DNA of 64,000 nucleotides, taken from contig WHVA01000043.1 in the NCBI GenBank assembly GCA_015179125.1, positions 1 to 64,000 on the forward strand, read 5' to 3'. The number at the start of each line of letters is the position of its first letter. The first letter of the stretch is position 1. The stretch is from Gautieria morchelliformis (lineage: Eukaryota; Basidiomycota; Agaricomycetes; Gomphales; Gomphaceae). Below are positions 26,251 to 59,400 of this stretch, piece by piece. The notes under the pieces are model-generated. The model did no database searches. It saw nothing but the letters and a program-made list of their open reading frames with translations, and had not been told where the DNA came from. The position numbers were made by a program, and so were the translations under genes.

Positions 26251-26265
26251 CCGGGGCCCATAACC
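26251..26265 (-). promoter_or_regulatory. C1 primer binding site (initiator tRNA-Met half)
   Basis: On the minus strand GGTTATGGGCCCCGG follows the 5' LTR directly. It is complementary to the iMet anticodon arm (GGGCCCAUAACC), the primer type known from Drosophila copia. Confidence 0.8.
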
Positions 26266-26471
26266 TGTGGAACGAAGGAGTAAAATAGTAAAATGTTATA
26301 CTACGATCTACTTGAGATCGTTCTGCCTTTATATACAAAATATGAAGTCTATTGTATTATCAATCTCTTCGAGCTGCTGTGCCGATGCGAGGCCGGCGCA
26401 CCCACAGCCCGGGGTCAAGAGCGATCTCGAACTTCCGGCTAAGTGCGTGCCGGCTCTGCCTCGGCCGTATC

Positions 26472-26960: not shown

Positions 26961-26961
26961 A

Positions 26962-26974
26962 GGGTTATGGGCCC
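26962..26974 (+). promoter_or_regulatory. C2 primer binding site overlapping the gag start codon
   Basis: GGGTTATGGGCCC is the complement of the initiator tRNA-Met anticodon arm. The ATG inside it (26967-26969) is the complement of the CAU anticodon and is also the first ATG of the polyprotein. Confidence 0.8.
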
Positions 26975-29900: not shown

Positions 29901-31217
29901 TTTGGAGTCGACTACAATGAAACCTATGCACCTGTTGCTCGGATGACTTCCTTACGGATTATATGTGCCATTGCTGCCAGGAACAACTGGCCTATTCACC
30001 AAATGGATGTGGACAGTGCGTATTTGAATGCTACACTGCCAGAACCTATTTACATGAGACAGCCGTATGGATATGAGACCGGAGACAAAGATGATGTCCT
30101 CCTGCTGAAGAAAGCACTTTACGGCCTCAAACAATCTGGAAGGGAATGGTACAAACGTCTGAGTGGTGAATTTCTCAAGTTAGGATTCACTAAATCAGCT
30201 TCGGATGGAGCTGTATTTTGCAGACGTGGACCGAGAGGGCATGCGATTATTGCGACGGCAGTAGACGACCTCACTATCACAGCTGAGAGTCAACCAATCC
30301 TCTATGGGGTAAAGCATGATCTTGCCCAGATCTTCAGTATGAAAGATCTAGGCGAGATTCATTGGCTTTTGAACCTCAAAATCGAAAGAGATTGGAATAA
30401 CAAATCGATTGCAATATCACAAGCTGCATATATTCAAAAAATCATCAAAAAATTCAATCTGGATGATGCCAAAACATTTTCCACGCCTCTCGACCCAGCC
30501 GTTAAATTATCCAGAGACCAATGCCCTTCTACAGATGAAGACAAACAGAAGATGTCAAGAATTCCATACAGACAAGCGATAGGATCATTGATGTGGGCAG
30601 TAGTAGCCACTCGACCGGACATTGCGTTCGCAGTGTCATTACTTTCTCAATTCCTCGAAAACCCAGGTCCAACACATTGGCATGCAGTCAAACGTGTCTT
30701 TAAATATCTAAAAGGCACGATGGACTACAAATTGACACTTGGGAAAAATCGAGACGGCCTCATTGGGTATTCAGATGCGGATTGGGCTTCTCAAGAGCAC
30801 AGGCACTCATACTCAGCTTATATTTTTCAGATTGATGGAGGGACAGTATCATGGAGTTGTCAAAAACAATCCATAGTAGCCCTATCATCAACTGAAGCCG
30901 AATTCGTTGCTCTGACTCATGCGAGCAAAGAAGCCTTATGGATGCGCCACTTTATTTCTGAAGTATTCCAACCGCTGAATTGTCCCATCAAACTTTATTC
31001 AGACAATCAATCAGCCATTGCCATCGTCTATGGCACTCAACAACACATGAGGACCAAGCATTTCGACATTAGATTATATTTCATCCGAGATATAGTCGAA
31101 GATGAAGAAATTAAGCTTGTGTACCTACCAACGGAACACATGCTAGCCGATCTTCTCACTAAAGGACTTCCTAGTCCTAGAGTGAGAATCCTCAACGAGA
31201 AAATCGGAATATATTAA
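26967..31217 (+). CDS. C2 copia gag-pol polyprotein (1416 aa)
   Basis: Single ORF encoding Gag, protease, integrase, RT and RNase H. Start taken as ATG 26967, since upstream codons in frame belong to the LTR. Gag domain with LWRATLTSYFESKN; CCHC knuckle CTNCHKPGHAIESC; protease ILDTGTTAHMT; GAG-pre-integrase HQKMGHISQKSL with CDACIQVK; integrase SDVWGPA, SDRGG and the Glu region in ESNGVAERLNRT; RT WVFLWKRNPEG, MDVDSAYLNA and the catalytic VDD; RNase H SSTEAEFVALT and TKHFDIRLYFIRD, ending ADLLTKGLP. A single frame implies that Gag excess must be set by processing or another route, as in Drosophila copia splicing. No inactivating change is visible. Confidence 0.96.
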   Translation: MGPADTSQKLLGVEKLATDGSNWPLWRATLTSYFESKNLLRHIEGRAIRPPDPPVMPPGHILTEAEETQIEKAEEKLEKYLAREGQAKTQIIVSVSESLALMLQKRHTAKEVWDALVNEMTKKPKMVLTNLQRQLRSMRCPEDGDLRDHLDKAQDLYARLNEMGARISEGEFTDIILASLPPSYEAVMNALTTSLEECGMPLVPDDIIRVLKAQYDRRKTLNISQEEQAFIGSSTKGQKGRKDPKVPACTNCHKPGHAIESCWAKGGGKEGQGPRQKKKAKAKKKKGKAKANVTEEVSSEEDESGSPAAFANFDCSNLSSLSLDTVVILDTGTTAHMTPHKNLLRDYSPFSQPRTIRAANKGTFDAFGSGSLVLSNKVGDKTVNITLKDTFYAPKMAVTLISIGRCDDAGYNTQIADQKCTISNRKGRILMQAPKLNGLYRFDLQHTSAEAHVCASAMEIHQKMGHISQKSLQHLLNRGMILGIELSSKGDKVVCDACIQVKIARKSLPQEPRSRSSKFGDRIYSDVWGPARHSTIDKKSYYVSFIDDYSRESVIYLMANKLEAFSKYKLYEALMLRQRNVHIKALVSDRGGKYTSSEFEQHLAKQGTKHWLTVHDTPESNGVAERLNRTLVERARAMLLESSLPKTLWGHAILHANYLRNRTHTRALPDKTPFEMIHHEKPNLKDIHVWGIEVYVKVKEGNKLAARAKRARWIGISGQSHGHCIYWPDSQKVSVERNIIFDSEMKGGKAPIISIEESQLPTSRKMVQAISAPAPMPSRLVSEEAKIEEIDDNEPEERLKELQPSQTVDVRPKEAAPIRRSERIRQQQVQPAPSGPITRSQTKRHAGADITTLAYEDIEDHQDKLFEQDLSSETDGISDYNLAISTLSTSDQNKDKVLPDLNQTEPSNADEALNDPIWKASMDKEYKVLLDKGVWEVVKPPPGANIVGNRWVFLWKRNPEGEPITPRSRMVAQGFTQSFGVDYNETYAPVARMTSLRIICAIAARNNWPIHQMDVDSAYLNATLPEPIYMRQPYGYETGDKDDVLLLKKALYGLKQSGREWYKRLSGEFLKLGFTKSASDGAVFCRRGPRGHAIIATAVDDLTITAESQPILYGVKHDLAQIFSMKDLGEIHWLLNLKIERDWNNKSIAISQAAYIQKIIKKFNLDDAKTFSTPLDPAVKLSRDQCPSTDEDKQKMSRIPYRQAIGSLMWAVVATRPDIAFAVSLLSQFLENPGPTHWHAVKRVFKYLKGTMDYKLTLGKNRDGLIGYSDADWASQEHRHSYSAYIFQIDGGTVSWSCQKQSIVALSSTEAEFVALTHASKEALWMRHFISEVFQPLNCPIKLYSDNQSAIAIVYGTQQHMRTKHFDIRLYFIRDIVEDEEIKLVYLPTEHMLADLLTKGLPSPRVRILNEKIGIY

Positions 31218-31230
31218 GCTTGAGGGGGCG

Positions 31231-31719
31231 TGTTGGGTGCATTTATGCTCCTGCACCAAAATCAAGCATAATATATTCAATTTATTGTGTGGTGTTTCAA
31301 TATTTTCTCATACTGTTCTTGTACTATGCATCCACTTCTCTGCTTATTTTCGAAAATTTCTAGTCACTCCCTATCTCTCCATTCCATTCTGTTATTTCTA
31401 TTTTCATAGGCGGCTGCACCCAGCGGAGTTTGAAATGACTTCGACGCGCGAGCCCTTGGGCGCTAAAGGGCCGGGTGCAAGTATATGCCTTCTGAGACAG
31501 GATTACACTCCTCTCTCAGTGACAATAAATTCACTGAGAGAGGCGAGTAGTATCTTTCATATTTACATAGCATGTTGACTGAAAATCATGTAGTATATTT
31601 GATTCTAGGTATTGTATTAATATATCAGTGACAATAAATTCACTGAGAGAGTATATTTGATTCTAGCTTTCTAAGAACTCTACCGAACCTTCCCTGCCAT
31701 AACCCCTTAGTTGCTAACA
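31231..31719 (+). repeat. C2 3' LTR (489 bp)
   Basis: Nearly identical to 26472-26960; the only difference I find is near position 470 of the LTR. Confidence 0.95.
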
Positions 31720-32233
31720 GTATCATCGTCCCGATTACTAACAGTCGCCACTATTCGACATTGCTGACTCGTTGAGGGGTATCCGGAAAACCCAGCGCGG
31801 GATCCGGAACCTTCTTGCGGAGATGGCGGTGGTTCAGGCACAACAGTTGTTGTCGCTCCAGAACCAGATGACCGTCATGTCAGCGGTGTTAGAGCAGTTC
31901 AAGTGGGAGTACCGGTGGCGGAACAACATGCTCCGGGAACGAATGGAACTGTGGACGCAGGAGCAGGGGAATGGGGCGGAAGCGGGGCTGAGCGAAAGGG
32001 AGGAAACGAGGGTGGAGACCGAGCTGGTGAACGTGGAGATAGGGCGTGCAGAAGAGGGTGCGGAAGCGGAGAACAAGGGCGAGGGGGAAACGATGAGGGA
32101 GGAGTAGAGGTGGAAAATCTTGTAACATAATTTCTTGAAGTGTCGGAAATATCATAACGGAAATTAATCGGAATTGTTGTGTGACTTGAGAACTGTAAGA
32201 TTCAATGGGTATCGGAAATGTGGTCGGAACTGA

Positions 32234-39080: not shown

Positions 39081-39396
39081 GCTAACAAGAACTCTTGTAA
39101 TATATGTCAGAAATATATAAGTTGATATTAATGATTGGACACTCAATGACGAGTGTATCCTAATATCCCTCATTGTCTGAATATATGTGGTGTCTGACTA
39201 AGCTCAGGGCGAGTGCCCTGATGATGATCCAAGTCAGTCATGTGACACAGCTGGTGAGAAAAGGTTGTTGAACAAGATAATGAGAACTTTGAGGCTTTAG
39301 ATCTCAGAGCAGTAGATAGTATATGGTTGTGTTGTAATATCAACCAAGAACTAAAGGAAATCAATGGAAGATAGACCACACAGTGATCACACATGC
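39081..39396. other. 316 bp spacer between F1-B and F1-D
   Basis: No gene, RNA or repeat recognised. Moderately AT-rich; ends with CATGC, the target duplication of copy D. Confidence 0.6.
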
Positions 39397-40045
39397 TGTC
39401 ACGACCGCTCATTTCCGACTTCCAATCTTCAGTTCCACAACACTTTCCACCCCTCCGATATTTCCGACATTCCACCCCTTGTTCTATTCCCTTGTTCTTT
39501 CGACTCTATTACTCGGACCCACCGGACCCTTTTCATCGTTCATCAAAACCACATATCCGGTCACCTTTGTAATTCATTGTCAGATATGTTTTCCCGACCC
39601 CTTGTTCTTTGCCATTGTTCTACCTTATCCTGAACCCCCCTTGTAGTCCCATTGTTCCCAATAGTTAGTTCCCACGCATTGTCTACTCGACTTCCGCTTC
39701 CCCCAGAATTTGCTTAGTACCACCCCATTACCTGTTGACTCAGCTCTTTGTATAAAAGCCTGTCATGTATGTCTCTTATTCTGAAATCAGATAATCACCT
39801 TCGATACTTGATTTCCTTCACTCCATCTCCTGTTCTTAGCACAGCGAGTCTAGCAAGATCTCAGTCCCTCCGCCTTCCGTCTTCCGCTTTCCGACCCAAG
39901 TTCCGACCAACCTTTGGTTCAGTACTTTCCGAATTCCGACTCAGTTCCAAAATACTTAGGACGATAGTTCATCGGGGGCGCAACCTATAAGTTGAAGCCG
40001 CCGTCCTTTCCAGTTCCGACTTAGTGGAAATCTCAATACGTAACA
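39397..40045 (+). repeat. F1 5' LTR of copy D (649 bp)
   Basis: TGTCACGACCGCTC to CAATACGTAACA. TATAAAAG at 39751-39758; AATCAGATAAT at 39785-39795, 34 bp further on, pairs with the primer site after the LTR. Confidence 0.95.
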
Positions 40046-40047
40046 GT

Positions 40048-40058
40048 ATTATCTGATT
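40048..40058 (+). promoter_or_regulatory. F1 self-primer binding site
   Basis: ATTATCTGATT begins 3 bp after the LTR and is the perfect 11-nt complement of AATCAGATAAT (39785-39795) at the predicted transcript start. Eleven nucleotides is the primer length known for S. pombe Tf1. Confidence 0.8.
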
Positions 40059-40078
40059 CCCACCCGATAACTATCACT

Positions 40079-41692
40079 ATGCCTCATACCACAGCTACTT
40101 CAGCTCAAGCAGGAGCTGTCGAAGCTCTCTCTTATTTTGGCAGTCTTAGATCCGCAGCACCAAGGCACGCGGAACCCTCCGGCAGCTCTCGTGCCGACGA
40201 TGAGCTCTCCGATGCTATTCCGCAACGATTCGAAGAAGTTCCCGACCCTAATCCCGACGACAATCCCGACTATGATGGAAACTCGACGAGTAGCAGCGGC
40301 GAACAAACAGCAGCGTCATTCCGACGCTCAGCTCCACCACCACCACCTCCACCAGGACCCCCTCCAGGCGGTCCACCTGGTGGTCCCCCAGGTGGTCCTC
40401 CACCCCCAATTCCACCTCAGATTCCCGCCAACCCAGTTCCACCTGCGCCAGTTCCGGATCTTGCACAAGCTATCGCCATGCTAGCCGGACAACTTCAGCG
40501 CCCGGTCCAAGCACCACCACGCCCCAAGACAAAGGTCCGCGAACCAGATCAGTTTGACGGTTCCGACCCCAAGAAGCTCCAGCCATTTCTGGTCCAGCTT
40601 CAACTCAATTTCCGCGATCGTCCCGACGCCTTTCCCGACGACGAACGAAAGGTCAATTACGCCCTTTCCTACCTCCGAGGCACGGCTCTCAACTACTTCG
40701 AGCCCGCCCTCATGGACCCATTCGCTCTCATCGACTGGGCCGACGATTACCACAACTTTGTTTCCGAACTCCGCAGCAACTTCGGACCATTTGATATGGA
40801 AGCCGATGCAGAAAATGAACTCGATAAGCTTCGCATGAAAGACACTCATAAGATAGCTAAATATATCGTCACGTTTCAGCAGCTTGCTCCTCGAGTCCAA
40901 TGGGGAGAAGCCGCACTCCGACGCCAGTTTTACATGGGCCTGCCATCCCGGATCAAGGATGAAATTGCCCGCGTCGGAAAACCCGCCACCTTTACCGACC
41001 TCCGCAACCTCGCCCAATCCATCGATTCGCACTACTGGGAAAGACACTCCGAGATTGCTCGCGAAACTTCCGCCCAGAGCAAGAACGACAAGTCTTCGGA
41101 CAAGAAGTCTGATAAAGACAAGAAGAAGACCAATTCCGGAAACAACAACTCCGGAAACAACAACAACAACAACAGTTCCGGATCCAACTCCGGCAACCGG
41201 AACAACAACTCCACCCCTCGCAATAACCAGGCCTCTGGTTCCAACACCAACACCCGGAAGAGCACTCCGGACCTTTCCGACAAACTTGGGAAGGACGGAA
41301 AACTAACCCCTGTAGAACACCAGCGTCGCATGGACAACAACCTTTGCCTTTTCTGTGGCAAAGGCGGTCACGTCGCTCGCGATTGCACCCGAGCTTCCGC
41401 TTCCGCTGCAAAGGCCAAGGGCTGTGCAGCGAAGACGGAAGAGAAATCCGAAGCGGCTCCCGCTGCGGATTCAAAAAAATGGTCAGCAGTCCTCCGGCCT
41501 CTGCACGAGCTGAGGGCTGTGTTGACCCCATTCGTGCGCCAAACGAGGTTAAACTCAACGCATCCGCTCTTTCGTCCTCCGACTCTCTGTTCCGCTCACC
41601 TCCGACACAATTTCCGCACCCCCGTTCACAGCATTGATCGACTCCGGTTCGACTCATTGTTTCCTCGATTCCGACTTTGTTTTGAAACATAA
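40079..41692 (+). CDS. gag: F1-D Gag (537 aa open frame; natural stop lost)
   Basis: Structural Gag. Starts MPHTTATSAQAGAVEALSYF; Pro/Gly run near residues 90-120; capsid domain with FRDRPDAFPDDERKVNYALSYL and NFVSELRSNFGPF; DTHKIAKYIVTFQQLAPRVQW; Lys-rich then Asn/Ser-rich spacer; CCHC knuckle CLFCGKGGHVARDC near residue 425. In copies A and B gag ends at TAG after seven A; here that codon is TGG (41480-41482), so the 0 frame reads on for about 70 foreign residues. Probably the true product was 467 aa. Confidence 0.9.
   Translation: MPHTTATSAQAGAVEALSYFGSLRSAAPRHAEPSGSSRADDELSDAIPQRFEEVPDPNPDDNPDYDGNSTSSSGEQTAASFRRSAPPPPPPPGPPPGGPPGGPPGGPPPPIPPQIPANPVPPAPVPDLAQAIAMLAGQLQRPVQAPPRPKTKVREPDQFDGSDPKKLQPFLVQLQLNFRDRPDAFPDDERKVNYALSYLRGTALNYFEPALMDPFALIDWADDYHNFVSELRSNFGPFDMEADAENELDKLRMKDTHKIAKYIVTFQQLAPRVQWGEAALRRQFYMGLPSRIKDEIARVGKPATFTDLRNLAQSIDSHYWERHSEIARETSAQSKNDKSSDKKSDKDKKKTNSGNNNSGNNNNNNSSGSNSGNRNNNSTPRNNQASGSNTNTRKSTPDLSDKLGKDGKLTPVEHQRRMDNNLCLFCGKGGHVARDCTRASASAAKAKGCAAKTEEKSEAAPAADSKKWSAVLRPLHELRAVLTPFVRQTRLNSTHPLFRPPTLCSAHLRHNFRTPVHSIDRLRFDSLFPRFRLCFET
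41473..41482 (+). promoter_or_regulatory. -1 frameshift site with mutated stop (F1-D)
   Basis: Seven A (41473-41479) followed by TGG instead of TAG. The slippery run is preserved while the stop after it is lost. Confidence 0.7.
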
Positions 41693-44600
41693 ACTTCCGA
41701 CATGCAACATTCCGACAATTCCGCTCCGCCTTTTCGACGGGTCTTCCAACACGGCAATTTCCCAAGTCGTGGACCTGTCTATCCATTTCGCTACTGGGGA
41801 CAACCATGAAGTTACGTTTTACGTTACTCCGCTAGATGCTAGCTGTTCCGTTGTACTAGGACACAATTGGCTCACCCGATATAATCCGTCGATTAACTGG
41901 GCATTGGGTCAGATACAGTTCGGTACCCCGGATCAACTTCCGTCTATTCCAACGTCGTCCGCAAAGATGGCTCAGGCCTCTTCTGCATCTCCGCTCGTGG
42001 ATTCAGTTCCGCACTCCGGTCCCGCTTTAGCACCTCCGTCCCTCGAAGCTCCTCAAATTGCGCTCGTTTCCGCCACCGCTTTCCGCGTATTGCAACGGCA
42101 AGAAGACACGACCGTTTTCCAGCTTCACCTTTCCGATTCAGCTTCAGTCAAGGCTCGTTCCGCCTCGACTTCCACTCCGGTCGACATGAGCTCAGTTCCG
42201 GAAGAATATCGTGACTTACCGGACGTGTTCAACAAGGCCAAAGCTGACAAACCTGCTGAACATCGACCTTACGATTTGAAGATAGATTTGGAAGAAGGAG
42301 CATCTCCGCCCCTTGGACCGATCTACTCCCTTTCGCAAAGTGAACTCCAAACTCTCCACGAGTTCGTCGATGAACATCTCAACATGGGCTTTATCTGCCC
42401 TTCGCTGTCTCCGCACGGCGCTCCGGTCCTTTTCGTCAAGAACAAGGATGGATCTCTCCGCCTCTGCGTCAATTTCCGCGGACTCAATGCCCTCACTAAG
42501 AAGGACAAATATCCGCTTCCGCGCATTTCCGACCTCCTCGACACCCCCCGCAGGGCGAAGATCTACACCAAAATCGACCTCCGGCACGCTTATCACCTTG
42601 TCCGCATCCGGAAAGGTGACGAGTGGAAAACCACTTTCCGCACCCGCTACGGTGCTTTTGAGTGGGTTGTCATGCCTTTTGGTCTAACCAATGCTCCCGC
42701 CGTTTGTCAGCGATTCATGAACGACATATTTTCCGACCTCCTCGACGTATGCGTCCTAGTCTACATTGATGACATCCTCATCTATTGCGACACACCGGAA
42801 AAACATCGGGAACATGTCCGCGAAGTACTCCGCCGTCTCGGCAAACACCATCTCTACGCAAAAGCAGAGAAATGCGAATGGCACCGCGACACGGTCGAAT
42901 ACCTCGGCTACATCCTCTCTCCAACAGGTCTTACCATGGCAGAGGACAAAGTCAAGGCAATTCATGAATGGCCGGAACCCCGACGTGTTAAGGATGTGCA
43001 GTCCTTCCTTGGCTTCGCCAATTTTTACCGACGTTTCATTTATAACTTTTCCGACATTACTGTTCCGCTCACGCGTCTCACCAGGAAGGGTGCCCCATGG
43101 AATTTCACTCCGGAATGCCGTTCCGCATTTGAAGCCCTCAAAGCGGCCTTCACTACGGCTCCTATACTCGGTTTCTGGATTCCAGATGCCCAACTTGTAC
43201 TCGAAACCGACGCTTCCGACTATGCGCTAGCCGCCATTCTTTCCATCATTTCCCCTGACGACGGAGAAATTAATCCGATCGCCTTTCATTCCCGCACCTT
43301 TTCCGCCCCGGAACTCAACTACGACATCCACGATAAGGAACTACTTGCGATTTTCGAAGCCTTCAAAATTTGGAGACACTACCTTGAAGGTCCAACCTAT
43401 CCGATCGACGTTGTAACGGATCATAAGAACCTTGAGTCTTTTGCAACTACTAAGATTTTGACTCGCCGTCAAGTCTGCTGGTCCGAATACCTCTCACAGT
43501 TCAACATGGTGATCCGCTTCCGCCCCGGAAAGCTTGGAGCAAAACCCGACGCGCTCACTAGACGTTGGGACGTCTACCCAAAAGAGGGAAGTAGCGACTA
43601 TGCCAGCGTTAATCCACACAATTTCCGCCCAGTATTCTCTACTGAGCAACTGGCATCGTCCCTGCATGCCACAGCATTGCAGTTTCCGCTACTCCGCGCC
43701 ACAATCATTACGGACACCGAGTCTCTCCATTCCGACATCTGTTCCGCACTCCGTTCCGACCCCATCTCCGTAGCCCACCTCAATGACCCCATCAGTCCTG
43801 GATGGTCCCTCGATTCTGACGGATTTCTCCGGTACAAGTCCCGGATTTACGTTCCGGATACCAACGATCTACGACTTCGCGTACTCCAGCAAAGCCACGA
43901 TCATCCGCTCTCAGGACACCAAGGCCAGAACAAAACCCTCGACATAATCCGACGTACCTATACTTGGCCTCTCCTCCGCACGATGGTCCAAGACTACTGC
44001 AAGTCATGCACCACCTGTATGCGAGCCAAGCCTCAACGTCACAACCCTACGGCCTCTTGAAGCAACTTCCGATCCTGGAACAACCGTGGAATTCGATATC
44101 CATGGATTTCATTGAGAAACTTCCTAAGTCATCTGGCACGATACCATTCTAGTAATCGTTGAACGCCTTACAAAGCAGTCCATCTTTATTCCGACATACG
44201 ACACCATCACTTCCACCCAACTCGCACAACTCTTCGTACTCCACGTCTTTTCCAAGCACGGAATTCCTTCCCATGTCACTTCCGACCGTGGATCAGAATT
44301 CGTGTCCTCCTTTTTCCACACGCTCGGCAAGGCTCTCGACATGAAGCTCCACTTCACTTCCAGTTATCACCCCGAAGGAGACGGACAAACGGAATGTACT
44401 AATCAGACCCTTGAACAGTATCTCCGCGTCTATTGCAACTACCAACATAGCAATTGGTCCGACCTTCTTCCACTCGCGGAATTTGCCTACAACAATGCGC
44501 CTTCTGCGACCACCGGAATTTCACCCTTTTACGCCAACAAGGGCTACCACCCGAATCTCGCCATCCACCCTGAACACGACCTCGCCTCTGCCAGAGCCCG

Positions 44601-45180
44601 AGATTTCGTTGTGGAACTTGACGACCTTCACCAGCACCTCCGAGAGAACATTACCGCTGCCCAGAAGAGATATCAAACTTCCGCCGATCGGAAACGCCTT
44701 CCGCAACCGGCATTCGAGATTGGCGACAAAGTCTTTGTCAAAGCTGAAAACTTCCGCACCACTCGCCCCTTGAAGAAGCTCTCTGAAAAATACCTTGGTC
44801 CTTACGAGATCATCGCTAAGGCCGGCAGTCGTTCTTTCACTCTCAGACTTCCTGACAATATGCGCGCAGTACACCCGGTATTCCATGTCTCCATGCTTGA
44901 GCCAGCAGTTCCGAATACAATTCCGAATCGAGAACAACCTCCACCTCCGCCAGTCGTCATCGACGGAGAACCGGAATATGAGATCTCGGAAATTCTCAAC
45001 TCCAAGCTCGACAGACGATACCGCTGCCAACTCCAGTACCTAGTCAAGTGGGCAGGCTATGAAAACACCGATGAAGAGACCTCGTGGATTTCCGCCACGG
45101 AACTAGACCACGCCTCTGACCTCGTCGCTGATTTCCACAAGTCATACCCTGATAAGCCTGGCCCCATTTCCGCGCCTTAG
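41480..45180 (+). pseudogene. pol: F1-D pol, broken by three small deletions
   Basis: Linker, protease DSGSTHCFLDSD (41640-41675), RT with YIDDILIYC (about 42763-42790), RNase H DASDYALAAI and DHKNLESF, integrase CKSCTTCMRAK, SDRGSEF and YHPEGDGQTE, C-terminal chromodomain LVKWAGYENTDEETSW, stop 45178-45180. Against copy A there is a 4-nt deletion near 41585 (TCTCTCTCTG shortened) between the frameshift site and protease, and single or double deletions near 44044 and 44137 in integrase. The long open part is 41553-44060; the end reopens at 44302. Confidence 0.93.
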
Positions 45181-45310
45181 TCATTTCCGACCTCTTTTCC
45201 GACACCCATTCCTTTCTTACAGTTCTCAAATCATTGTTAAAATCCGATTACATTTCCGTTATGCTAATTTCCGACACTTCAAGAAAAATATTACAAGTCA
45301 CCCTGACACC

Positions 45311-46556
45311 CTACTCCTCCCTCATTGTCTCCGCCTCAACCTCTTCTTCCGCTTCCGGCTCTTTTTCCGCCTCTCCTACCTCCACACTCACCAACTCCGT
45401 TTCCACCCTTTCCCTCCTTTCCGTCCCCCCACTCGGACCCGCTTCCGCCCCAATTCCCTGCTCCCGCAGCCGCACGTCCATTCGGTCCCGGACCAGGTCA
45501 TTCCGCCACCGCATTTCCCGCGTTAACTGTTCCAGGACTGTGGACATAACAGTCATCTGGTTCTGAATCGATAGAACCTGATGCTGCTGAACCTCGGCCA
45601 TATCAATCATTATGTCCCGGATCTCGCGTTGCTGTTCCCGCATGGCCCTCAGCGACCCGGAAATGTCAAGGAGCGGATAGGACATTGTAAAACGGTTCAA
45701 AACCGCCTGTCCCGATTTCCCGGTCACCGGAAAAGATTCCTCGGCCCTCCCTCTGCTCAGTCCCGGTTCCGACTTCGGATTCGACTCCTCAACCTTCTGT
45801 TTCTTTCGCTCCAGCCTCGAAGCACACCCGTCCACAACGCAGCGTCTCTTCTTGTCACGGCACTGATCGCACGAAGTTTCCCGTGGGTTACTCGACCACG
45901 TGCAATCCAACCCCTTAGACTCGCATGGGTCGCAAGGAGCCTTTTCCTCCTCATCGCCGTCCCACATTTTCTGCTTCTTAGTCGCGGGATTTTCCGGTCC
46001 TAGTTCACGCAGCTCCAACATCCGATTCAACTTGTCCTTTCGAGCCTTCTGGAATGCGTCCGCCCGACGTTTCCGTTCCGCCACAAGGTTCACCGGAGTA
46101 GCAATTTCCTTTTGTTTCCCTTTTCCTTCGGGAGACAGTGTACTTTCCGCCAAACTTTCCGAGTCTGATTCTGACTCATCCTGAACATTATTCTGGAAGA
46201 ACTTTTAGTTGATTCAAGAACTTTTCCACCGGACATTCCCGACTCACCTGGTCCTTTTCCGCCTTCTCCGCAGCAGCTTTCTCCACAGCAGCCTTCTCTG
46301 CAGCAGCCTTGTCCGCAGCAGCTTTCCGTGCCGCGTTCCGTCTCCATTTCTCTTCACGAACGCGCTCCTCCTCCTCACAGCGCTCGCATTCCTTCCTCTC
46401 CTGTTCCTTCCGCTCCTTCTCCCGACGTTCCTTCTCTTTCCGTGCAGTTTCCTCAGCCTCGCATTTTTCGGCCAGTTCCTTTTGCGTGAGCATATCAGCG
46501 AAATGCTGTTTCATCTCGGCACTCGTCATCTTGGAGAAGTCGATTGGAGCACTCAT
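45311..46556 (-). CDS. antisense Zn2Cys6 zinc-cluster protein of F1-D, intact (392 aa)
   Basis: Best copy of the extra gene. Exon 1 46556-46248 (103 codons): MSAPIDFSKMTSAEMKQHF then about 75 residues of E/K/R/A coiled coil. Intron 46247-46181, 67 nt, CAG/GTGAGTCGG to TGTTCAG/GAT, phase 0. Exon 2 46180-45311: acidic-Ser start DESESDSES, basic stretch AERKRR, then Cys at residues 186, 189, 196, 207, 210, 217 with RDKKRR before the last Cys, as in fungal Zn2Cys6 DNA-binding domains. Then KKQKVEE, a helical region IQNQMTVMSTVLEQL and an acidic tail ending MREE. It has no role in any known gypsy cycle. Convergent with pol (130 bp between stops); its start lies 123 bp inside the 3' LTR, which may supply an antisense promoter. 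Confidence 0.85.
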
Positions 46557-46679
46557 GTTGGATTGGAAAGAAGACGTGTTTGTTCCTCAGCCTATTTTTT
46601 TTAGACTCCGACGTGTCTGTTCACAGGTCACGTGATCCGACCTGTGGTCTCGCGGGGCTCGACCTTAGAAGGGAGATAC

Positions 46680-47328
46680 TGTCACGACCGCTCATTTCCG
46701 ACTTCCGATCTTCAGTTCCGCGACACTTTCCGCCCCTCCAATATTTCCAACATTCCGCCCATTGTTCTATTCCCTTGTTCTTTCGACTCTATTACTCGGA
46801 CCCACCGGACCCGTTTCATCGTTCATCAAAACCACATATCCGGTCACCCTTGTAATTCGTTGTCAGATATGTTTTCCCGACCCCTTGTTCTTTGCCATTG
46901 TTCTACCTTACCCTGAACCCCCCTTGTAGTCCCATTGTTCCCAATAGTTAGTTCCCACGCATTGTCTACTCGACTTCCGCTTCCCCCGGAATTTGCTTAG
47001 TACTACCCCATTACCTGTTGACTCAGCTCTTTGTATAAAAGCCTGTCATGTATGTCTCTTATTCTGAAATCAGATAATCACCTTCGATACTTGATTTCCT
47101 TCGCTCCATCTCCTGTTCTTAGCACAGCGAGTCTAGCAAGATCTCAGTCCCTCTGCCTTCCGTCTTCCGCTTTCTGACCCAAGTTCCGACCAACCTTTGG
47201 TTCAGTACTTTCCGAATTCCGACTCAGTTCCGAAATACTTAGGACAATAGTTCATCGGGGGCGCAACCTACAAGTTGAAGCCGCCGTCCTTTCCAGTTCC
47301 GACTTAGTGGAAATCTCAATATGTAACA
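46680..47328 (+). repeat. F1 3' LTR of copy D (649 bp)
   Basis: Same length as the 5' LTR. TATAAAA at 47034-47040. Preceded by AGAAGGGAGATAC. Confidence 0.95.
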
Positions 47329-51177: not shown

Positions 51178-51885
51178 TTGGTTCCCAAGTCGGTCACACA
51201 TGCCAGCAAGGTGGACATCCAGCATGACTTCCATGACCTCAAGAATGATGTCAGAGACATGAAAAACATGGTCAGAGATTGCGACAACATGGTCGACACT
51301 GAGCACACAAAAACAAAGGACCTGGAGGAGCAGCTTCAAGCCCTCCAGTCCACACATGCGGCCTCCAAGAGGCTGCAGCCAGACCCAGCTGCCCAACCAG
51401 CAGGCTGGTTCAGCTGGCCCATCCTCTCACATGATGGTGCCCCTGCCATCACACACCGCCCCAGTGCTGGCCGCTCAGATCTCCACTGTGGGCAACAATG
51501 CTGGGCCTGTGCCAGGCCTCTCAGCCCAGATCACCAGCCCCCCCTCCACGTCAGTGGAGGGGCGGAGCCTGCCACCAGAAGCGATGCACTACAAATGCTC
51601 AGGTGGATGGGGGTCAGACACCTCCACCTTCAGGTTTTATGACCCCGACCAGGCTCAGCATGTCACTGACCAGCCCAAGCAGAAGTGCAAGAAATTGCAT
51701 GGCATTCACAACACCCACAACAGCCTAGCTGTTGCTAAGGAGCACATGACCAATGTGTACCTGGCCGAGTCATTATCACACATGACCAGCGACCCCATGC
51801 TGCGATGGCAGCTGCCCACTGTCAAGGCCCATTACATCGGTCCACATGTGGACTTGCCTCTAGTGGCAGGACCAGTTCATCTTCC

Positions 51886-52446
51886 TGTAAGGACCCGGCC
51901 TTTGGCCGGCTACTTACCGGTAGAACCTTCTTCCGAGCCCGAGCCTTGTGATATTCATGCCCGAGTACATATGATACTTATCCGTGCCCGAGCCCGAGCC
52001 CGAGCTTGAACTCATATCCGACCTTGATCCCATGCCCGTATCCCCCTTAGTTACTGATTCCGCTCCATCACGCATCATTCGTATATTACCTCGCCCTGAC
52101 CTCGGTCTCCTGACCCCGCCCTGACCTCCACTAATCCGTTCGCCCCTGACTCGCACCTCGTCCGTATATAACCCCCTTGTATGCATTCCTACTCCTCAGT
52201 CTGAAAATCAACTATCGTGTCCCTTCGATCCCTAGCTAGTTTCTACGCCTCGCCTCTTAAGCCAGAACCTCGCCTCTTATTCGTTTACCTCCGAAATTGG
52301 GACTCGTGCGTAGGGTCGGCGCAGCACATAAGCTGAAGCCAAGTCCCTCTCCGACTTCCCCATCCAAACCTCGCCCTGTAACCTCGGACCTTGACTCGGG
52401 TTTCGTCCCGACCTCGGTCAACCTTACGACGGATCGTATCGTAACA
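51886..52446 (+). repeat. F3 5' LTR (561 bp)
   Basis: TGTAAGGACCCGGCC to CGTATCGTAACA. GCCCGA hexamer run near 51984-52005; TATATAA at 52165-52171; CAGTCTGAAAAT at 52197-52208 pairs with the primer site. Confidence 0.95.
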
Positions 52447-52448
52447 GT

Positions 52449-52460
52449 ATTTTCAGACTG
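52449..52460 (+). promoter_or_regulatory. F3 self-primer binding site
   Basis: ATTTTCAGACTG starts 3 bp after the LTR and is the perfect 12-nt complement of 52197-52208, 32 bp after the TATA box. Geometry is the same as in F1 although the paired sequence differs. Confidence 0.8.
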
Positions 52461-52490
52461 CTTACACCCTACGTATCCCTTTTCTTCACG

Positions 52491-53723
52491 ATGTCCATGA
52501 TAACTCGTTCTCGCACCCTTCGGGGTATCTCAGAACAGCGACGTTTCTCGGAAGCCCCCGATGACTCACCCCCGTCCCCGGGGATACCCCTCGCAGACCC
52601 CGCCGAGCCTAGTAACAAAGGCAAAGGTAGGGCTAACCTCGGTGACCCTTCAGGTGATCCAGGTGATGGCTCTAGAAGTTCTGACAACGATCGGGACCTC
52701 CCCAACCTTCCGCCCGAGGACCTCGGTGACCTCGAGGACAACGAGCTTATGCGTCGAGTGTTCATCAAACTCACGAAACCTCGCGAATCCGAAGCATGAG
52801 CCAAGGTCAAGGAACCGGATAGTTATGACGGTACTGACCAAGCCAAGCTTCGCACTTTCTTCCTTCAATGTGTACTCAACTTCAGAGATCGCCCCACCGC
52901 GTTCAAGACTGGGGCCTCAACGGTGCAGTATGCTATTTCTTACCTGTCCGGCTCGGCTCTGCAATATTTCGAGCCGGCGATCCTCGGCGAAGTCCAACCC
53001 GAGCCAGATTGGCTCGAGGACTGGGACAGTTTCAAGGCCGAGCTCGAGCTTAACTTCGGCCCATACAACAATGCGGCCCAAGCCGAGATTGACCTCGAGA
53101 AGATCGTTATGAAAGAGCACCACAAGGCCGCGCGATTCTTTATCGATTTCGCCCGAGCTTCGACTCGGACTCAATGGAACGACGCGGCCCTCCGACACTT
53201 TGCCTATAAGGGCTTGGCCAAACGAATCAAGGACGACTTACTTCACTTCCCTCGATTCCGCAGCCTCGCCGAGCTTAGGAACTTCGCGCTGGAATGCGAT
53301 AGCCGTTACTGGGAGCGAAAGGAATACGACGCCATGATCAATGGTCGTAGCTCCCAGCCTGCACGCACCACTAATCAGTCCAGTAGCAATGCCACTAACA
53401 ACCACCAGTCTTCCAGTGGTTCCAATAACAATAAGAACCGCAACAAGACTAACAACAGCGGCAAGGGTTCCAACAACAACAACTCTTCGAACAACAAGAG
53501 CCAGCCCGACATTTCGAGCAAACTCGGGAAGGATGGCAAACTGCTTCCCGAGGAGCGCCAACGTCGGGTCGACCAAGGCCTTTGTCTGCTTTGCGGCACC
53601 AAAGGTCACGTCGTCAAGGACTGCCCGAAGAACAAGTCTACCAATAGTAGCGGTTCTAAAGGTCGGGCAACGAAGACCCCTAACGAGGGGACTTCGGCCT
53701 CCATTACGGAGGTGAAAAAATAG
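52491..53723 (+). pseudogene. gag: F3 gag (one internal TGA)
   Basis: Starts MSMITRSRTLRGISEQRRF. One frame to TAG at 53721-53723, broken by TGA at 52797-52799 (probably a former CGA or TGG before AKVKEPDSYDG). Capsid segment FLQCVLNFRDRPTAF and NFGPYNNAAQAEIDLEKIV; then an Asn/Ser/Lys-rich spacer; CCHC knuckle CLLCGTKGHVVKDC near 53581-53625. The start could alternatively be the ATG at 52497. If the TGA is a real mutation, this copy needs Gag from elsewhere. Confidence 0.88.
53714..53723 (+). promoter_or_regulatory. -1 frameshift site, gag-pol junction (F3)
   Basis: G-AAA-AAA then TAG. The -1 frame runs open through a linker into the protease (VDCGSSDCFI). Confidence 0.75.
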
Positions 53724-56700
53724 GTAGCAACCTCGGAACCACACGATCCGAGGATTGCGGTAACCTCACCCGTGTGCTCAGACTCAGCGCCGCTTCTCAT
53801 TCATTGTCCAAAGATTCCCTTAATGTAGATCTAACCTCGCCTTCGCTGCCCAACGTCGCTTTTGTTGCATTAGTTGACTGCGGGTCCTCAGACTGTTTTA
53901 TTGAATCCAGATTTGTCCAGAAGTACTCCATGCCTGCTTATCCTGTCTCTCCTATACCCTTGAAACTATTTGACGGTAGTACTAACACTACCATTACCCA
54001 AGCTCTAGACCTTGCATTTGCTTTCCGACCGGCGAACAACAATGGGTTACCTTCTACGTAACCTCGCTCGACTCCAGTTGCTCGATGGTACTTGGCCACA
54101 ACTGGCTCACCCGCTACAATCCGTCGATTGACTGGGTATTGGGCAGTATTACTTTCAAGACCATCGACCTAACAACGACTCCAGCGACCCCGGCGACGTC
54201 AGCCCGCTCAGCTTCGGCTACGACTTCGACCTCGCCTACGGCATCTTCGCCCCCGCCTCCGACCTCGCTTCCGAAGTTGCAAGCACCCCTCGTTTCCCTA
54301 ATCAATGCACCCGCTTTCATGCGCGCATCTAGATTGGAAGGGTCCGAAGTGTTTCAGCTCAATTTGGCTTCGCCTGAGCTCCTCGCCAGAGGGGCAACAT
54401 CGGGAGGAAGCTCTTCCGAGCTTCCTGAGAACATTAAGAAACATGTTCCCGAAGTATATCACGAATTTGCAGATGTGTTCAGCAAAGCACGCGCTGACAC
54501 TCTAGCTCCCCACCGACCTCACGATATCAAAATCAACCTCGAAGAAGGGACCTCGCCACCAATCGGTCCCATCTACTCTCTCTCAGCTTCCGAACTCAAA
54601 GCACTTCGCGAGTTCATCGACGAGCATTTAAACATCGGTTTCATCCGACCTTCACGCTCGCCTCATGGTGCACCGGTATTGTTCGTTCGCAAAAAAGATG
54701 GCTCACTTCGGTTGTGTGTCGACTTCCGAGGTTTGAACAAAATCTCAAAAAAAGATCGGTATCCATTGCCATTGATTGCTGACTTACTTGATGCTCCAAA
54801 GAATGCTCGCATCTATACGAAAATTGACCTTCGTCACGCTTACCACCTCGTACGGGTGGCCGAGGGTGACGAATGGAAGACCGCCTTCAGGACTCGCTAT
54901 GGGTCTTTCGAATGGTTGGTCATGCCATTTGGTCTCACTAATGGCCCTGCTGCCTTCCAGAGATTCATGAACGAGGTGTTCGCCGACCTTTTGGACGTTT
55001 GTGTGGTGGTATACTTGGATGACATTCTAATCTACTCCAGTGACCCCTCCAAACATGTTGAACATGTCAAGGAAGTCTTGCGACGACTACGACTCAACAA
55101 CCTCTTCGCCAAAGAAGACAAATGCGAGTTCCATCGCGACTCGGTTGAATTCCTCGGCTACATACTCTCTCCCGAGGGCCTCACTATGGCGGATGACAAG
55201 GTAAAGGTCATTCAAGACTGGCCTGAACCTCGCAAAGTTCGCGACATCCAATCCTTCCTCGGCTTCGCCAACTTCTACCGACGTTTCATTCACAACTACT
55301 CCGACATCACCATTCCTCTCACCCGACTTACCCGCAAGGGTACCCCTTGGAATTTTTCCGAGGATTGTCGACGGGCTTTCAACCTGTTGAAGAGGGCGTT
55401 CACTACCGCCCCTATCCTTACTCACTGGATTCCTGACCTTCCACTGATCGTAGAGACTGATGCATCAGATTATGCCTTAGCGGCAATCTTATCACTACGA
55501 ACCTCGGAAGGCGAACTTCATCCCGTCGCTTTCCACTCCCGCACATTCACCTCTACCGAGCTCAACTACGATGTTCACGACAAGGAGCTCCTCGCCATTT
55601 TTGAAGCCTTTCAACGCTGGCGACACTACCTAGAGGGCTCTGGCGAACCAGTTGACGTTATCACCGATCACAAGAACCTCGAATACTTTTCAACTACGAA
55701 GCTCTTGACCCGTCGACAAGCTCGGTGGTGGAATACCTTTCCCAGTTCAACCTCGCCATACGCTTCCGACCAGGTCGCCTCGGAACGAAGCCTGACTCTC
55801 TCACTAGACGATGGGACGTCTACCTTAAAGAGGGGAATAGCGACTATGCCACCATAAACCCGCAGAACCTACGGCCAGTGTTTACTCAGCACCAGCTGGC
55901 ATCGTCCCTTAGAGCTACTAACCTCGCTCCCATCGTACTCCGAGCCGCTTCACTGCTTGATACCGAGCAGATCCGAGCTGACATACTAGCAAACCTCCCC
56001 TCGGACCCCATAGCCAAGTCGCACCTTGGCTTGGTTAATGAACCGAGGTGGACCACAGACCCAGAGGGTTTTCTCAAGCTTGACAACCGAACCTATGTTC
56101 CAGTGGCCCAAGACCTTCGACTTCGCATCCTGCAATACAAGCACGATCACATCCTCTCGGGACACTTCGGGGTCAACAAGACCTTGGAGCTGATCCGACG
56201 AGACTATACTTGGCCGGGGATTAGATCCTTTGTCAAGGATTATTGCAAGACGTGTACCACTTGTATGCGAAGCAAGCCACAACGTCACAAACCCTATGGT
56301 CTCCTCAAGCAACTTCCTGTTCCCGAGAAACCTTGGAATTCCATCTCTATGGATTTCATTGAGCAACTCCCCCCTTCATCCGAGTTCACCTCCATCCTAG
56401 TGATTGTTGACCGCTTCACTAAGCAGGTTATCTTCATTCCAACCACAGACAAGATAACCTCGCAAGAGCTCGCTCACCTCTTCGTTCTTCATGTCTTTTC
56501 AAAGCATGGAGTCCCCTCGCACGTCACCTCGGACAGGGGTTCCGAGTTTGTTTCGCGCTTCTGGCGTTCCCTAGGGAAAGCTTTGGACATGCGGTTGCAT
56601 TTCACCTCGGGATATCATCCCGAGGGTGACGGTCAGACCGAGCGTGCTAACCAAACTTTGGAACAGTACCTCAGGATCTATTGCAACTATCAGCAGTCCA

Positions 56701-57431
56701 ATTGGGCTTCGCTCCTTCCCCTAGCCGAGTTCGCCTACAACAACGCGCCTAGCGCAACCACCGGCGTCTCCCCATTCTTTGCCAATAAAGGCTACCATCC
56801 GAACCTCGCAGTTCACCCCGAGCGCGACCTCGCCTCGGCACGAGCCCGAGACTTCGTGGTTGACCTGGACGAGCTTCACCAAGAACTTCGCCACGCCATC
56901 CTCGAGGCTCAGAAAACTTACCAAGCCTCGGCCGATGTTCGTCGCAAGCCCGCTCCTGATTTCCAAGTAGGATCCCTCGCCTTTGTAAAGGCACAGTACT
57001 TTCGAACAACTCGGCCTACCAAGAAGCTCGCCGAGAAGTTCTTGGGTCCTTTTGAGATCATTTCCTGAGCGGGTACTCACTCCTTCACCCTTCGACTTCC
57101 AGAACACATGCATTCAGTCCATCCGGTCTTCCACGTATCTATGCTCGAACCAGCCTCGCCCAACACCATACCAAACCGAGTTCAGCCGCCTCCGCCCCCA
57201 GTCGTTATCGACGGCGAACCCGAGTTCGAGGTTTCCGAAATCCTCGACTCGAAGATCGATAATAGACGCAAGAGCTGCAAATTACTCTACCTTGTTAGGT
57301 GGACTGGTTACGAAGGTACCGACGAAGAAACCTCGTGGATCCTCGCTTCCGAGCTTGATCATGCCTCGGAGCTGGTCACAGATTTCCACGACTCTTACCC
57401 GGGCAAGCCGGGCCCTTTGACTGCTCTATGA
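53721..57431 (+). pseudogene. pol: F3 pol (protease-RT-RNase H-integrase-chromodomain), two frameshifts and one TGA
   Basis: Protease VDCGSSDCFIESRF near 53873-53915; frameshift near 54030; RT and RNase H in one frame 54085-55725 with YLDDILIYS near 55012-55040, [17 protein letters not shown] and ETDASDYALAAIL; frameshift near 55728 at RWW; integrase 55725-57065 with CKTCTTCMRSK, SDRGSEF and YHPEGDGQTERANQTLEQYL; TGA 57066-57068 (CGA in relatives); chromodomain LVRWTGYEGTDEETSW, stop 57429-57431. Closely collinear with F1 pol, but synonymous positions differ so that CCTCG replaces TTCCG-type triplets. Convergent with the antisense gene (115 bp between stops). Confidence 0.93.
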
Positions 57432-57546
57432 TCGTTTTCCTTTGTTAACCCCCATGACCCCAGTAGTTAGATAACAATATCCCCTCGCAATCGAACAAAA
57501 CAAAAATCAATAAAATCCAAGAAAATTCCATTATTCCAATTACTAG

Positions 57547-58669
57547 TTATTCCACCATCCTCATATCCTCTCCCTCGCTCTCCTCGCTCCCCTCGCCTGA
57601 CTCCTCCTCATTACTGCTACTACTTCGCTCCACCAGACCCCCATGTCCCCCATAATCCGCCAAGTCTCTCGCCCCCTGCATCCGCTTCAAATAATTCCGC
57701 CTCCTCCTTATCCTCATGAGCTCCACATCCGCCCTGTTCATCCTGTCATTCGCAGCCCTAAACTCCCCTAGCAACTCGCACACCCTCTCCCCAACCTCGC
57801 CAACCTTCTGTCCCACATCCCTCACCGCCGCTATCAACTCCCTCATCTCCGCACTTCGCTCCGATCTTTTCGTCTTCTTGTCCTTCTTCGCCCTCCGACC
57901 TTCCACCTCGGTTTCCTCCACGTCAGTTTCCTTCCCCTCACTCTGCCTCACTCCGTCTGTTCCCTTTCCCTTCCCCTCGCTCAGCCTCGCTTCCATCTTC
58001 TCCACCCTCGTCTCGAGGTTACGCTCGACCCAGTCGCTCGAGTCGTTGTCATCCTCAACCTCGTCCTGAACCTTGGCCCCCTTCCTCGGCCTCGGCCCAT
58101 CCTCGGCCTCCTCGCTCCTCGCTCGCTTCTTGCTCGCTGTACCCGCCTGACCCTTGCCTGGGGTTGCCTTGCTGTGGCGACCTTGGGCGATGCTACAGCC
58201 CAAGGAACGGGTCCTGCACCACACGCAGGCACCCTGGTCGGCGAGGCCGAAGTCGAGACTAACGGCCCGAAGGCACGTATAGTCGCGCTCTTCGCAGCGC
58301 GCGCACCTCGCCTCGGCCTTGGTCGCGAGCTGCCACTCGCGAGGTCCCCCGTCGGCGAGCTTGTACCCGTATAGGGACAAGTCGGTCGGGTGGTAGGAGA
58401 ATAACATGCGTTTATACTAGACAAATCAGCAGCGCCCATGATTAGACAACTACGGTACTCACCTTCTTTCCACTCGGTCCTTCCTGCCACGGCTGCCGCA
58501 TGTCGATGGCCCCCGTCTCGTCAATTAGCAATGCGCCAACCTCGGGCCTATCCTCGGGCATAACCTCACCCGAGGCTTCGTTCTCCTCAGACAGTAGTGT
58601 CTGGTCGAACGCGTTGCTCGCGCTGTGCTTGTCGACGGCTGAGCTGAAGAGGGCTTGAGGGCGCACCAT
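57547..58669 (-). CDS. antisense Zn2Cys6 zinc-cluster protein of F3, intact (358 aa)
   Basis: Exon 1 58669-58463 (69 codons, MVRPQALFSSAVDKHSAS...). Intron 58462-58417, 46 nt, AAG/GTGAGTACC to GTCTAG/TAT, phase 0. Exon 2 58416-57547 (870 nt). Cys at residues 107, 110, 117, 133, 136, 143 give CX2CX6CX15CX2CX6C, the F1 topology with a longer middle loop. Then a basic patch KKRARSEE, acidic-Ser segment DDNDSSDW, Lys-rich helix, heptad region (VRDVGQKVGEVGERVCELL), Arg-rich RIRRRRNYLKR and an acidic Ser/Glu tail. Sequence identity to F1 is low outside the Cys pattern; position, orientation, exon plan and tail are conserved. Uninterrupted while gag and pol are not. Role unknown; DNA binding is inferred. 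Confidence 0.82.
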
Positions 58670-58840
58670 ATTAGTTGGCAATGGGGTTCGCTGCCTCCTA
58701 CCCACCCTTTTATCCAACCTCGGCTACGATTTAAGCTTCGCCTTTCCGGCTACTTAACATCGGACTGAGATCTAGATTCAAGGATAGGCGAACCCTGTTC
58801 ACATTACGGCCTCGAGGGTCTCGGCCATGAGGGGGAATAC

Positions 58841-59400
58841 TGTAAGGACCCGGCCTTTGGCCGGCTACTTACCGGTAGAACCTTCTTCCGAGCCCGAGCC
58901 TTGTGATATTCATGCCCGAGTACATATGATACTTATCCGTGCCCAAGCCCGAGCCCGAGCTTGAACTCATATCCGACCTTGATCCCATGCCCGTATCCCC
59001 CTTAGTTACTGATTCCGCTCCATCACGCATCATTCGTATATTACCTCGCCCTGACCTCGGTCTCCTGACCCCGCCCTGACCTCCACTAATCCGTTCGCCC
59101 CTGACTCGCACCTCGTCCGTATATAACCCCTTGTATGCATTCCTACTCCTCAGTCTGAAAATCAACTATCGTGTCCCTTCGATCCCTAGCTAGTTTCTAC
59201 GCCTCGCCTCTTAAGCCAGAACCTCGCCTCTTATTCGTTTACCTCCGAAATTGGGACTCGTGCGTAGGGTCGGCGCAGCACATAAGCTGAAGCCAAGTCC
59301 CTCTCCGACTTCCCCATCCAAACCTCGCCCTGTAACCTCGGACCTTGACTCGGGTTTCGTCCCGACCTCGGTCAACCTTACGACGGATCGTATCGTAACA
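58841..59400 (+). repeat. F3 3' LTR (560 bp)
   Basis: I find two differences from the 5' LTR (one C fewer after TATATAA, and GCCCAAGC for GCCCGAGC). Confidence 0.95.

Follow-up and report, generated by a model that had tools for sequence, protein, structure and literature searches.

Gypsy retrotransposons of the fungus Gautieria morchelliformis carry, between pol and the 3′ LTR and in antisense orientation, a two-exon gene that is under purifying selection, and the elements of two of the families concerned, F1 and F3, are packed with a short family-specific word lying mostly in one orientation. The window is a stretch of 64,000 nt on contig C482, and the genome-wide counts refer to the assembly behind it (122 Mb in 1113 contigs). 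Judged by these sequence patterns and by analogy with the plant protein VANC, the antisense protein could well be a self-encoded and self-targeted DNA-binding activator or anti-silencer, a reading that is preferred here on a tentative basis. The following features of the window were used in the analysis.

39393..47328, plus strand: F1c Gypsy element, with LTRs at 39393-40045 and 46676-47328 that are 96.6% identical
46248..46556, minus strand: exon 1 of the F1c antisense gene, with ATG at 46556 and a charged, coiled-coil-like N-terminus
46193..46247, minus strand: F1c intron, GTGAGT...CAG, 55 nt
45311..46192, minus strand: exon 2 of the F1c antisense gene, with Cys6 core, helix and acidic tail
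4471..6264, minus strand: F1a antisense gene, its intron holding an insert of about 560 bp
21084..32107, plus strand: F1b antisense gene of the divergent class, with ATG at 21084 and an intron at 21408-21460, split by nested LTR elements
21982-26471 and 26472-31719: the LTR elements nested within the F1b antisense gene
51885..59400, plus strand: F3 Gypsy element, with LTRs at 51885-52446 and 58840-59400 that are 99.6% identical
57547..58669, minus strand: F3 antisense gene, with exon 1 at 58669-58463, a 46-nt intron at 58462-58417 and exon 2 at 58416-57547
15332..16526, minus strand: decayed F4 antisense gene with in-frame stops

The F1c gene encodes a product of 396 aa, and the F3 gene, reading from the ATG at 58669 to the stop at 57547, one of 358 aa. 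Pfam scans of F1c identified Gag, whose CCHC match is sub-threshold, together with protease, RT, RNase H, integrase and a chromodomain. The place of the antisense gene in F1, F3 and decayed F4, as described in the first-pass annotation, was confirmed by the coordinates of F1a, F1b, F1c, F3 and F4, by own-genome matches, by selection and by the splice ends, and the same layout was found in a further family, F5 (locus L071), in which an open antisense gene adjoins the integrase. The own-genome searches yielded 116 matches for F1 (105 of 1043 candidates scored), 143 for F3 (114 of 743) and 150 for a piece of F4 (150 of 232), while the integrase search gave 116 scored matches out of 6169 candidates. 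An antisense gene lay no more than 600 bp downstream of the integrase in at least 43 of these 116 matches, which is a lower bound because just 105 of the 1043 gene candidates were scored. In all 43 pairs the gene and the integrase were on opposite strands, and in 39 of them the gap was 129-157 bp.

Exon 2 of the F1 gene gave dN/dS values of 0.11-0.29 at dS of 0.18-1.4 in 34 comparisons against F1c, and the F3 gene gave 0.04-0.31 in 27 comparisons; the loci were chosen as the best protein matches whose Cys6 frame is open, a choice that pushes dN down. Such a choice cannot account for a gap like that between L063 and L066, with dN 0.16 and dS 1.17. Moreover, the differences between L063 and F1c numbered 58, 50 and 115 at the three codon positions and thus fell mostly in third positions. 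The 276 of 378 F3 pairs that passed the filter (more than 200 codons, dS 0.08-1.2) had a median dN/dS of 0.15, the highest value being 0.39. The set of Cys6 frames did not include L001, L002, L006, L052 and L053, which have no open frame above 150 aa with the Cys6 pattern, nor L008 and L035, which are window copies; L012 was left out due to a missing anchor, and the 34 comparisons are those left after one mis-sorted F3 row of 17 codons was voided. The antisense frame is a gene under purifying selection. The earlier suggestion of an element-encoded, intron-containing antisense gene therefore held, and the dN/dS comparison proposed along with it turned out in its favour.

The intron is kept across the copies. 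GTGAGT...AG was present at the projected intron ends in 30 of the 38 F1-type rows, and in 7 more, where the projection was shifted (F1b and L063-L068), donor and acceptor were found on inspection. In the remaining row, L012, the acceptor is gone through a deletion reaching into exon 2, and L012 was for this reason rejected as a case of clean intron loss. Among the 30 F3 rows the GTGAGT donor was present in 29 (L050 has ATGAGT) and the AG end in all. The intron is 54, 55 or 56 nt long in F1, mostly 55 nt in the F1c class, and 45-48 nt long in F3, and the exon frames hold: indels in the intron are not multiples of three, and the splice ends are kept while the length drifts. Due to this variation in length, an unspliced reading would break the frame. 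In the divergent class the intron was 51 or 54 nt long and free of in-frame stops in all six copies fetched (L063-L068), so that splicing is not forced there and a protein retaining the intron is possible; the class had been considered as intronless, which was rejected as introns are present. No clean intron loss was found among the 68 rows (38 F1-type and 30 F3). This agrees with the earlier proposal that the intron survives retrotransposition and fits the idea, put forward with it, that an antisense intron is not spliced out of the sense RNA. A database protein, P0001, runs directly across the place of the intron as if spliced. Database gene models are unevenly reliable as witnesses of splicing, since P0002 and P0003 miss part of the Cys core. 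The antisense gene is probably spliced in vivo, as the intron pattern and P0001 suggest; the spliced frame of the first-pass annotation stands to this extent, the six divergent-class copies being those in which it is not forced.

The second component of the system is the word. In F1c, TTCCG occurs 97 times on the plus strand and 26 times on the minus strand, with 17.5 expected from dinucleotides, and the longer TTCCGAC occurs 28 times vs 1.7 expected and once in reverse. The corresponding word of F3 is CCTCG, with 81 occurrences on the plus and 20 on the minus strand (17.8 expected), extended to AACCTCG with 24 vs 0.9 expected and 3 in reverse; F3 also holds CCGAG/CTCGG on both strands (43 and 40). 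As read on the gene strand the words are CGGAA (F1) and CGAGG (F3), and as double-stranded DNA the candidate words, or putative targets, are GTCGGAA and GCGAGGTT. The highest 5-mer z-score was 19 in F1 and 15 in F3; in two further elements of the window, one copia and one other LTR element, it was 7.9 and 6.2, and both are without the word. CGG, which lies inside the F1 word, is the half-site of many zinc-cluster proteins.

The words extend through coding DNA. As a null, synonymous codons were shuffled within each frame, with codon-pair and dinucleotide content not fixed. For TTCCG in F1 the observed counts and shuffle means were 31 vs 9.8 in RT-RNase H, 12 vs 3.4 in gag and 9 vs 3.2 in integrase; for CCTCG in F3 they were 13 vs 5.7 in RT and 15 vs 7.5 in integrase; and in exon 2 of the antisense gene they were 12 vs 6.0 for CGGAA (F1) and 16 vs 8.6 for CGAGG (F3), none of 500 shuffles reaching the observed value in each case. 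The excess in F1 exon 1 was weaker (5 vs 2.6; 13 of 500 shuffles). Codon usage alone was rejected by these shuffles as the cause of the words. CpG survival was rejected too, given that CpG is not depleted (observed/expected ratio 1.13 for F1, 1.05 for F3). F3 words were not enriched in F1 frames under the same shuffles. The F3 RT carries F1-type words, namely TTCCG (6 vs 2.7; 11 of 500) and TTCCGA (6 vs 1.1; 0 of 500).

Outside the window the pairing of family and word was the same: TTCCG averaged 13.6 per kb in 28 F1 loci and 2.1 in 27 F3 loci, CCTCG averaged 3.2 and 10.8, and at two loci surrounding other Zn_clus matches the values were 0.6 and 0.3-0.6. The word of F5 is weaker, with CTCGG at 36 vs 7.1 expected in an 8.5-kb stretch, pieces of other elements included, and at 8 vs 2.7 in the integrase frame (0 of 300 shuffles). 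The F4 relatives L070 and L072 showed no strong word. The two F1 gene classes retain the CRDKK half of the Cys core together with the same F1 word, and between F1 and F3 both the Cys core and the word are different. Two arrays were located in the 3′ LTR of F1c.

46696..46757, plus strand: first array, with five TTCCG words, at the beginning of the F1c 3′ LTR, directly upstream of the antisense leader
47158..47232, plus strand: second array, of six TTCCG words, in the downstream part of the F1c 3′ LTR

The antisense leader and the intron of F1c contain no TTCCG site. Conservation of the words in LTRs was assessed by defining the word in one copy and counting differences among the others (leave-one-out) against CpG-matched control windows, in alignments of 27 F1 and 18 F3 rows from which near-duplicates above 99% identity had been removed. 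Relative to control, variation was 0.47 at F1 sites and 0.42, 0.65 and 0.86 at AACCTCG, CCGAG and CCTCG of F3. Among pentamers ranked by variability TTCCG was 5th lowest of 43 in F1, and of the 33 pentamers in F3 CTCGG varied least and CTCGC most, i.e. the F3 words are unevenly conserved. Conservation of the words is suggestive only, because sites within one alignment are not independent. An apparently tenfold slower F1 word, obtained with the window copy as reference, was discarded as biased by reference-private changes.

One element of the window has the F1 word and no gene.

8726-14854: gypsy element nested within F4, with LTRs at 8726-9203 and 14370-14854 that are 91% identical, and no room for an antisense gene

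It contains TTCCG 23 times and CGGAA 28 times, with about 5 expected of each, and is CpG-poor (0.59). When four of its frames were compared with the null, a clear excess was confined to CGGAA in two of them (reached in 3 and 6 of 300 shuffles). This element may parasitise the F1 word, or else it speaks against the pairing of word and gene.

For the antisense protein a mechanism can be proposed in which the gene would be transcribed from the 3′ LTR or the leader, and the Cys6 protein, presumably zinc-binding, would enter the nucleus, dimerise and bind DNA at the family word, whose copies are spread over the protein's own element and its LTRs, for the most part in one orientation. Its effect there would be self-specific activation or anti-silencing, comparable to that of VANC on VANDAL; protein and word would co-evolve within a family, and the gene would move between related elements as a cassette. 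Such self-targeting is supported by the selected codons, the kept splice ends, the antisense orientation in 43 of 43 pairs and the family-specific oriented words, as well as by the CGG within the F1 word and the reduced variation of F1 LTR words. Against it stand the Zn_clus scores of whole exons below cut-off, with F3 unmatched, the F1 word in the gene-less gypsy, the TTCCGA excess in the F3 RT, the weaker or lacking word of F5 and of L070/L072, the uneven conservation of F3 LTR words, and the fact that a single orientation also fits an RNA signal.

The last point leads to the most serious alternative, in which the antisense gene does encode a regulator and the word is an unrelated signal in the sense RNA for packaging, stability or export, read by Gag or a host factor. 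The orientation of the word is constant relative to the element even within the antisense gene, the Gag of F1 has its sub-threshold match to a CCHC knuckle, and the RNA of an LTR element represents the whole element body; the presence of the word in the gene-less gypsy is also in line with such a signal. The word is, however, unoriented in that gypsy, F3 has CCGAG/CTCGG on both strands, and CGG is what would be expected for a zinc-cluster protein. Caution is needed, as a single orientation could reflect binding to direct repeats, a need to avoid hairpins in the element RNA, or an RNA signal. On balance the RNA signal is unlikely, while still deserving consideration beside a self-targeted DNA-binding protein.

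Comparison of the gene with its element indicates exchange. Among the 43 integrase-gene pairs the antisense protein was at least 78% identical to that of F1c in 23 and less so in 20, and both gene classes occur on integrases that are 94-97% identical to that of F1c (F1c itself 100). For an element on contig C163 compared with F1c, dS was 0.97 in the gene and 0.169 in the integrase, and leader and LTR were 90% identical. In 100-bp windows identity was 0.92-0.98 over 44128-45127, 0.88-0.89 in two windows at the pol end and spacer, 0.59-0.83 in the antisense gene and 0.86-0.97 beyond it, in leader and LTR. Among copies of the closer class the gene had about twice the divergence of the integrase (0.39 vs 0.20 for L005, 0.39 vs 0.21 for L007). 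The three open pieces of the F1b gene are nearer to the divergent class (L063, L065 and L066) than to F1c, despite a pol 91% identical to that of F1c. F1a, F1b and F1c all have the antisense gene, as had been stated earlier, but the F1b gene is not an allele of the F1c gene. The antisense gene appears to behave as an exchange cassette between related elements, a pattern seen for F1.

The same pattern could be explained by a repressor exerting copy-number control over its own family (self-exclusion), with cassette exchange reflecting selection for escape from resident copies. Two gene classes on closely similar integrases, with a gene dS far above the integrase dS, are compatible with this, and Ty1 is a retroelement known to be limited by antisense products. 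Both classes, however, share the basic Cys half and the word, so that exclusion specificity would not differ between them; the acidic tail suggests activation, and a repressor gives no clear reason for words throughout pol. Self-exclusion is accordingly regarded as rather improbable, and activation or anti-silencing through the family word is retained as the preferred function.

The protein has a charged N-terminus followed by the Cys6 core, a basic stretch, a coiled coil and an acidic tail; Cys6 spacing, coiled coil and acidic tail are present as had been described, and such a domain order resembles Gal4-type activators. The spacing is CX2CX6CX10CX2CX6C in F1, CX2CX6CX15CX2CX6C in F3 and CX2CX6CX7CX2CX6C in F4 and F5. 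Against Pfam Zn_clus (PF00172), with a curated cut-off of 21 bits, whole exon 2 scored 18.1 (F5), 17.6 (F4 relative L070), 14.9 (F1c) and 10.8 bits (F4 relative L072), and no match was obtained for whole exon 2 of F3 or for the database relatives P0001 and P0004. Pieces covering the Cys region scored 21.6 (F5, 67 residues), 20.6 (L070), 16.5 (F1c) and 13.7 bits (F3), the F5 piece being the sole sequence above the cut-off. F5 and L070 align to profile positions 2-38 in the usual order, and the F1 halves align in swapped order: the first, CDPCESKGLDC, to 15-37 and the second, the basic CDQCRDKKRRC, to 1-13. AlphaFold models of two window rows predicted a helix at exon-2 residues 181-248 (block means 78-97), and confidence was about 50 or less across the Cys core, giving no confident Cys fold. 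The Cys6 core is only zinc-cluster-like: the first-pass assignment to Zn2Cys6 retains the six-Cys spacing, whereas the profile search proposed with it brought no whole exon to the cut-off, none of F3 at all, and only the one F5 piece above it. Its designation as a regulator is made more plausible by the family-specific word.

A protein database search with the F1 protein (3229 candidates) gave none at E ≤ 1e-3, and PDB sequence searches gave no significant match, only Cep3 at the Cys core with E 7.9. For the F5 and F3 antisense proteins, the database relatives found were confined to four hypothetical proteins from Gautieria morchelliformis (P0001-P0004), with 67-76% identity for F5 and 88% across 17% of F3. 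In the gene models P0002 and P0003 the F5-type antisense protein continues into a translation like that of window 14370-14641, an LTR; these models are either annotation chimeras or element fusions.

It is improbable that the protein, as a captured host factor, serves a function unrelated to the DNA of its element, e.g. at host genes or chromatin. Zinc-cluster-like proteins are common host regulators, and in the whole assembly 17 Zn_clus matches were counted exon by exon (90 candidates) vs hundreds of element-borne Cys6 candidates, so that no host parent is visible; against this function speak the place and orientation conserved in several families and the family-specific words in cis. A chance or leftover open frame with no protein function, for which long open frames on both strands of the window and the open intron frame of the divergent class might be cited, is contradicted by dN/dS far below 1 across dS up to 1.4, by an intron accepting frame-breaking indels that the exons do not, and by the same layout in many copies of several families.

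Antisense genes in this place have been described before. In plant Gypsy elements (Grande gene23, RIRE2, Retand) aORFs lie antisense between pol and the 3′ LTR and are kept in most copies, and the Grande antisense protein is nuclear, has its own promoter and carries a TRP28 domain with predicted DNA binding, according to the parts of PMC11963269 and PMC7264820 consulted. The place is that of the fungal genes; the plant families are TRP28 (PF04195) and non-chromovirus, whereas the F1 pol has a chromodomain, and the consulted parts of these two sources describe neither splicing nor an oriented word. TRP28 was not reported in the Pfam scans of the antisense proteins studied here. In fungi, the antisense gene brtn is known from Boty-like Gypsy elements of Botrytis cinerea (Zhao et al. 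2011, Virology 417:248, as cited in PMC7264820, PMC8365987 and PMC4227169); its host is an ascomycete, and the comparison is made with the citing descriptions, in which neither a Cys6 core nor an intron or a matching word is mentioned for BRTN. HBZ of HTLV-1, a nuclear regulator encoded by a retroelement antisense gene (excerpts of PMC11963269), is likewise similar by description, with another domain and another host.

The closest functional parallel is VANC/VANDAL of Arabidopsis, in which a transposon-encoded protein is paired with a family-specific short word in its own elements; the unrelated AT9TSD1 carries the VANC6 word, as the gene-less gypsy carries that of F1 (excerpts of PMC5735166 and PMC10398659). 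By those excerpts VANDAL is a plant DNA transposon and the VANC words are located in non-coding tandem repeats, unlike the present words, which also run through coding DNA mostly in one orientation; VANC binding and demethylation have been demonstrated, while the fungal system is known from its sequence. Enrichment of a word in the own element, the trait shared with VANC, was found for F1 and F3, more weakly for F5, and not for the F4 relatives. To Zn2Cys6 factors (Gal4-type, PF00172) the proteins are alike in the two CX2CX6C halves, coiled coil, acidic tail and the CGG of the F1 word, and unlike in being retrotransposon-borne, in whole exons below the Pfam cut-off and in the swapped F1 halves. 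Fungal DNA transposons carry and pass on TET/JBP dioxygenase genes, proposed as anti-silencing genes and, in the consulted part of PMC12730594, reported from no retrotransposon; these encode an enzyme, unlike the antisense Cys6 protein.

The words "antisense" and "zinc" were absent from the accessible text of two surveys of fungal LTR elements (PMC3248453 and PMC3411680), and a literature search, mostly without subscription papers, returned neither an antisense gene of zinc-cluster type nor a retrotransposon with an oriented word specific to its family. None of 63 stretches in viral contigs that matched the pattern in a search with the F1 RT-RNase H was a relative. Antisense genes between pol and the 3′ LTR are thus already known (plant Grande/Retand, Botrytis brtn), and the oriented family words of F1 and F3 are new here.

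It is conceivable, though less assured than the self-targeted function as such, that fungal Gypsy elements evolved a complete system of self-recognition independently of plants: an antisense, spliced, zinc-cluster-like protein and a family word placed through LTRs and, by synonymous choice, through coding DNA would mark "self" for activation or anti-silencing, with the reader gene exchanged as a cassette and gene-less elements able to parasitise the word. If so, a retrotransposon can saturate its own genome, coding DNA included, with the word that its protein reads, and sequence-specific self-activation or anti-silencing arose in fungi as in plants. Antisense accessory genes of plants and Botrytis, so far without known function, would gain a testable one; natural pairs of protein and target word would become available for the study of specificity change, and the transposon's self-label could be used in silencing research.

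Several further features were observed in and beside these genes. The insert of about 560 bp in the F1a intron (window 5353-5970) lies directly past the donor and leaves the splice ends in place, with an apparently duplicated ACAGGTGAGT on both of its sides. Within the F1b gene, the nested element at 21982-26471 has 207-bp LTRs that are 96% identical, and the one at 26472-31719 is copia-like, with a 1421-aa open frame, and probably recent since its LTRs are 99.8% identical. The DNA beside the F5 element (L071 and L076, C149:405800-414300) includes a portion of another F4-like antisense gene as well as a 0.7-kb stretch repeated in inverted orientation at 77% identity.
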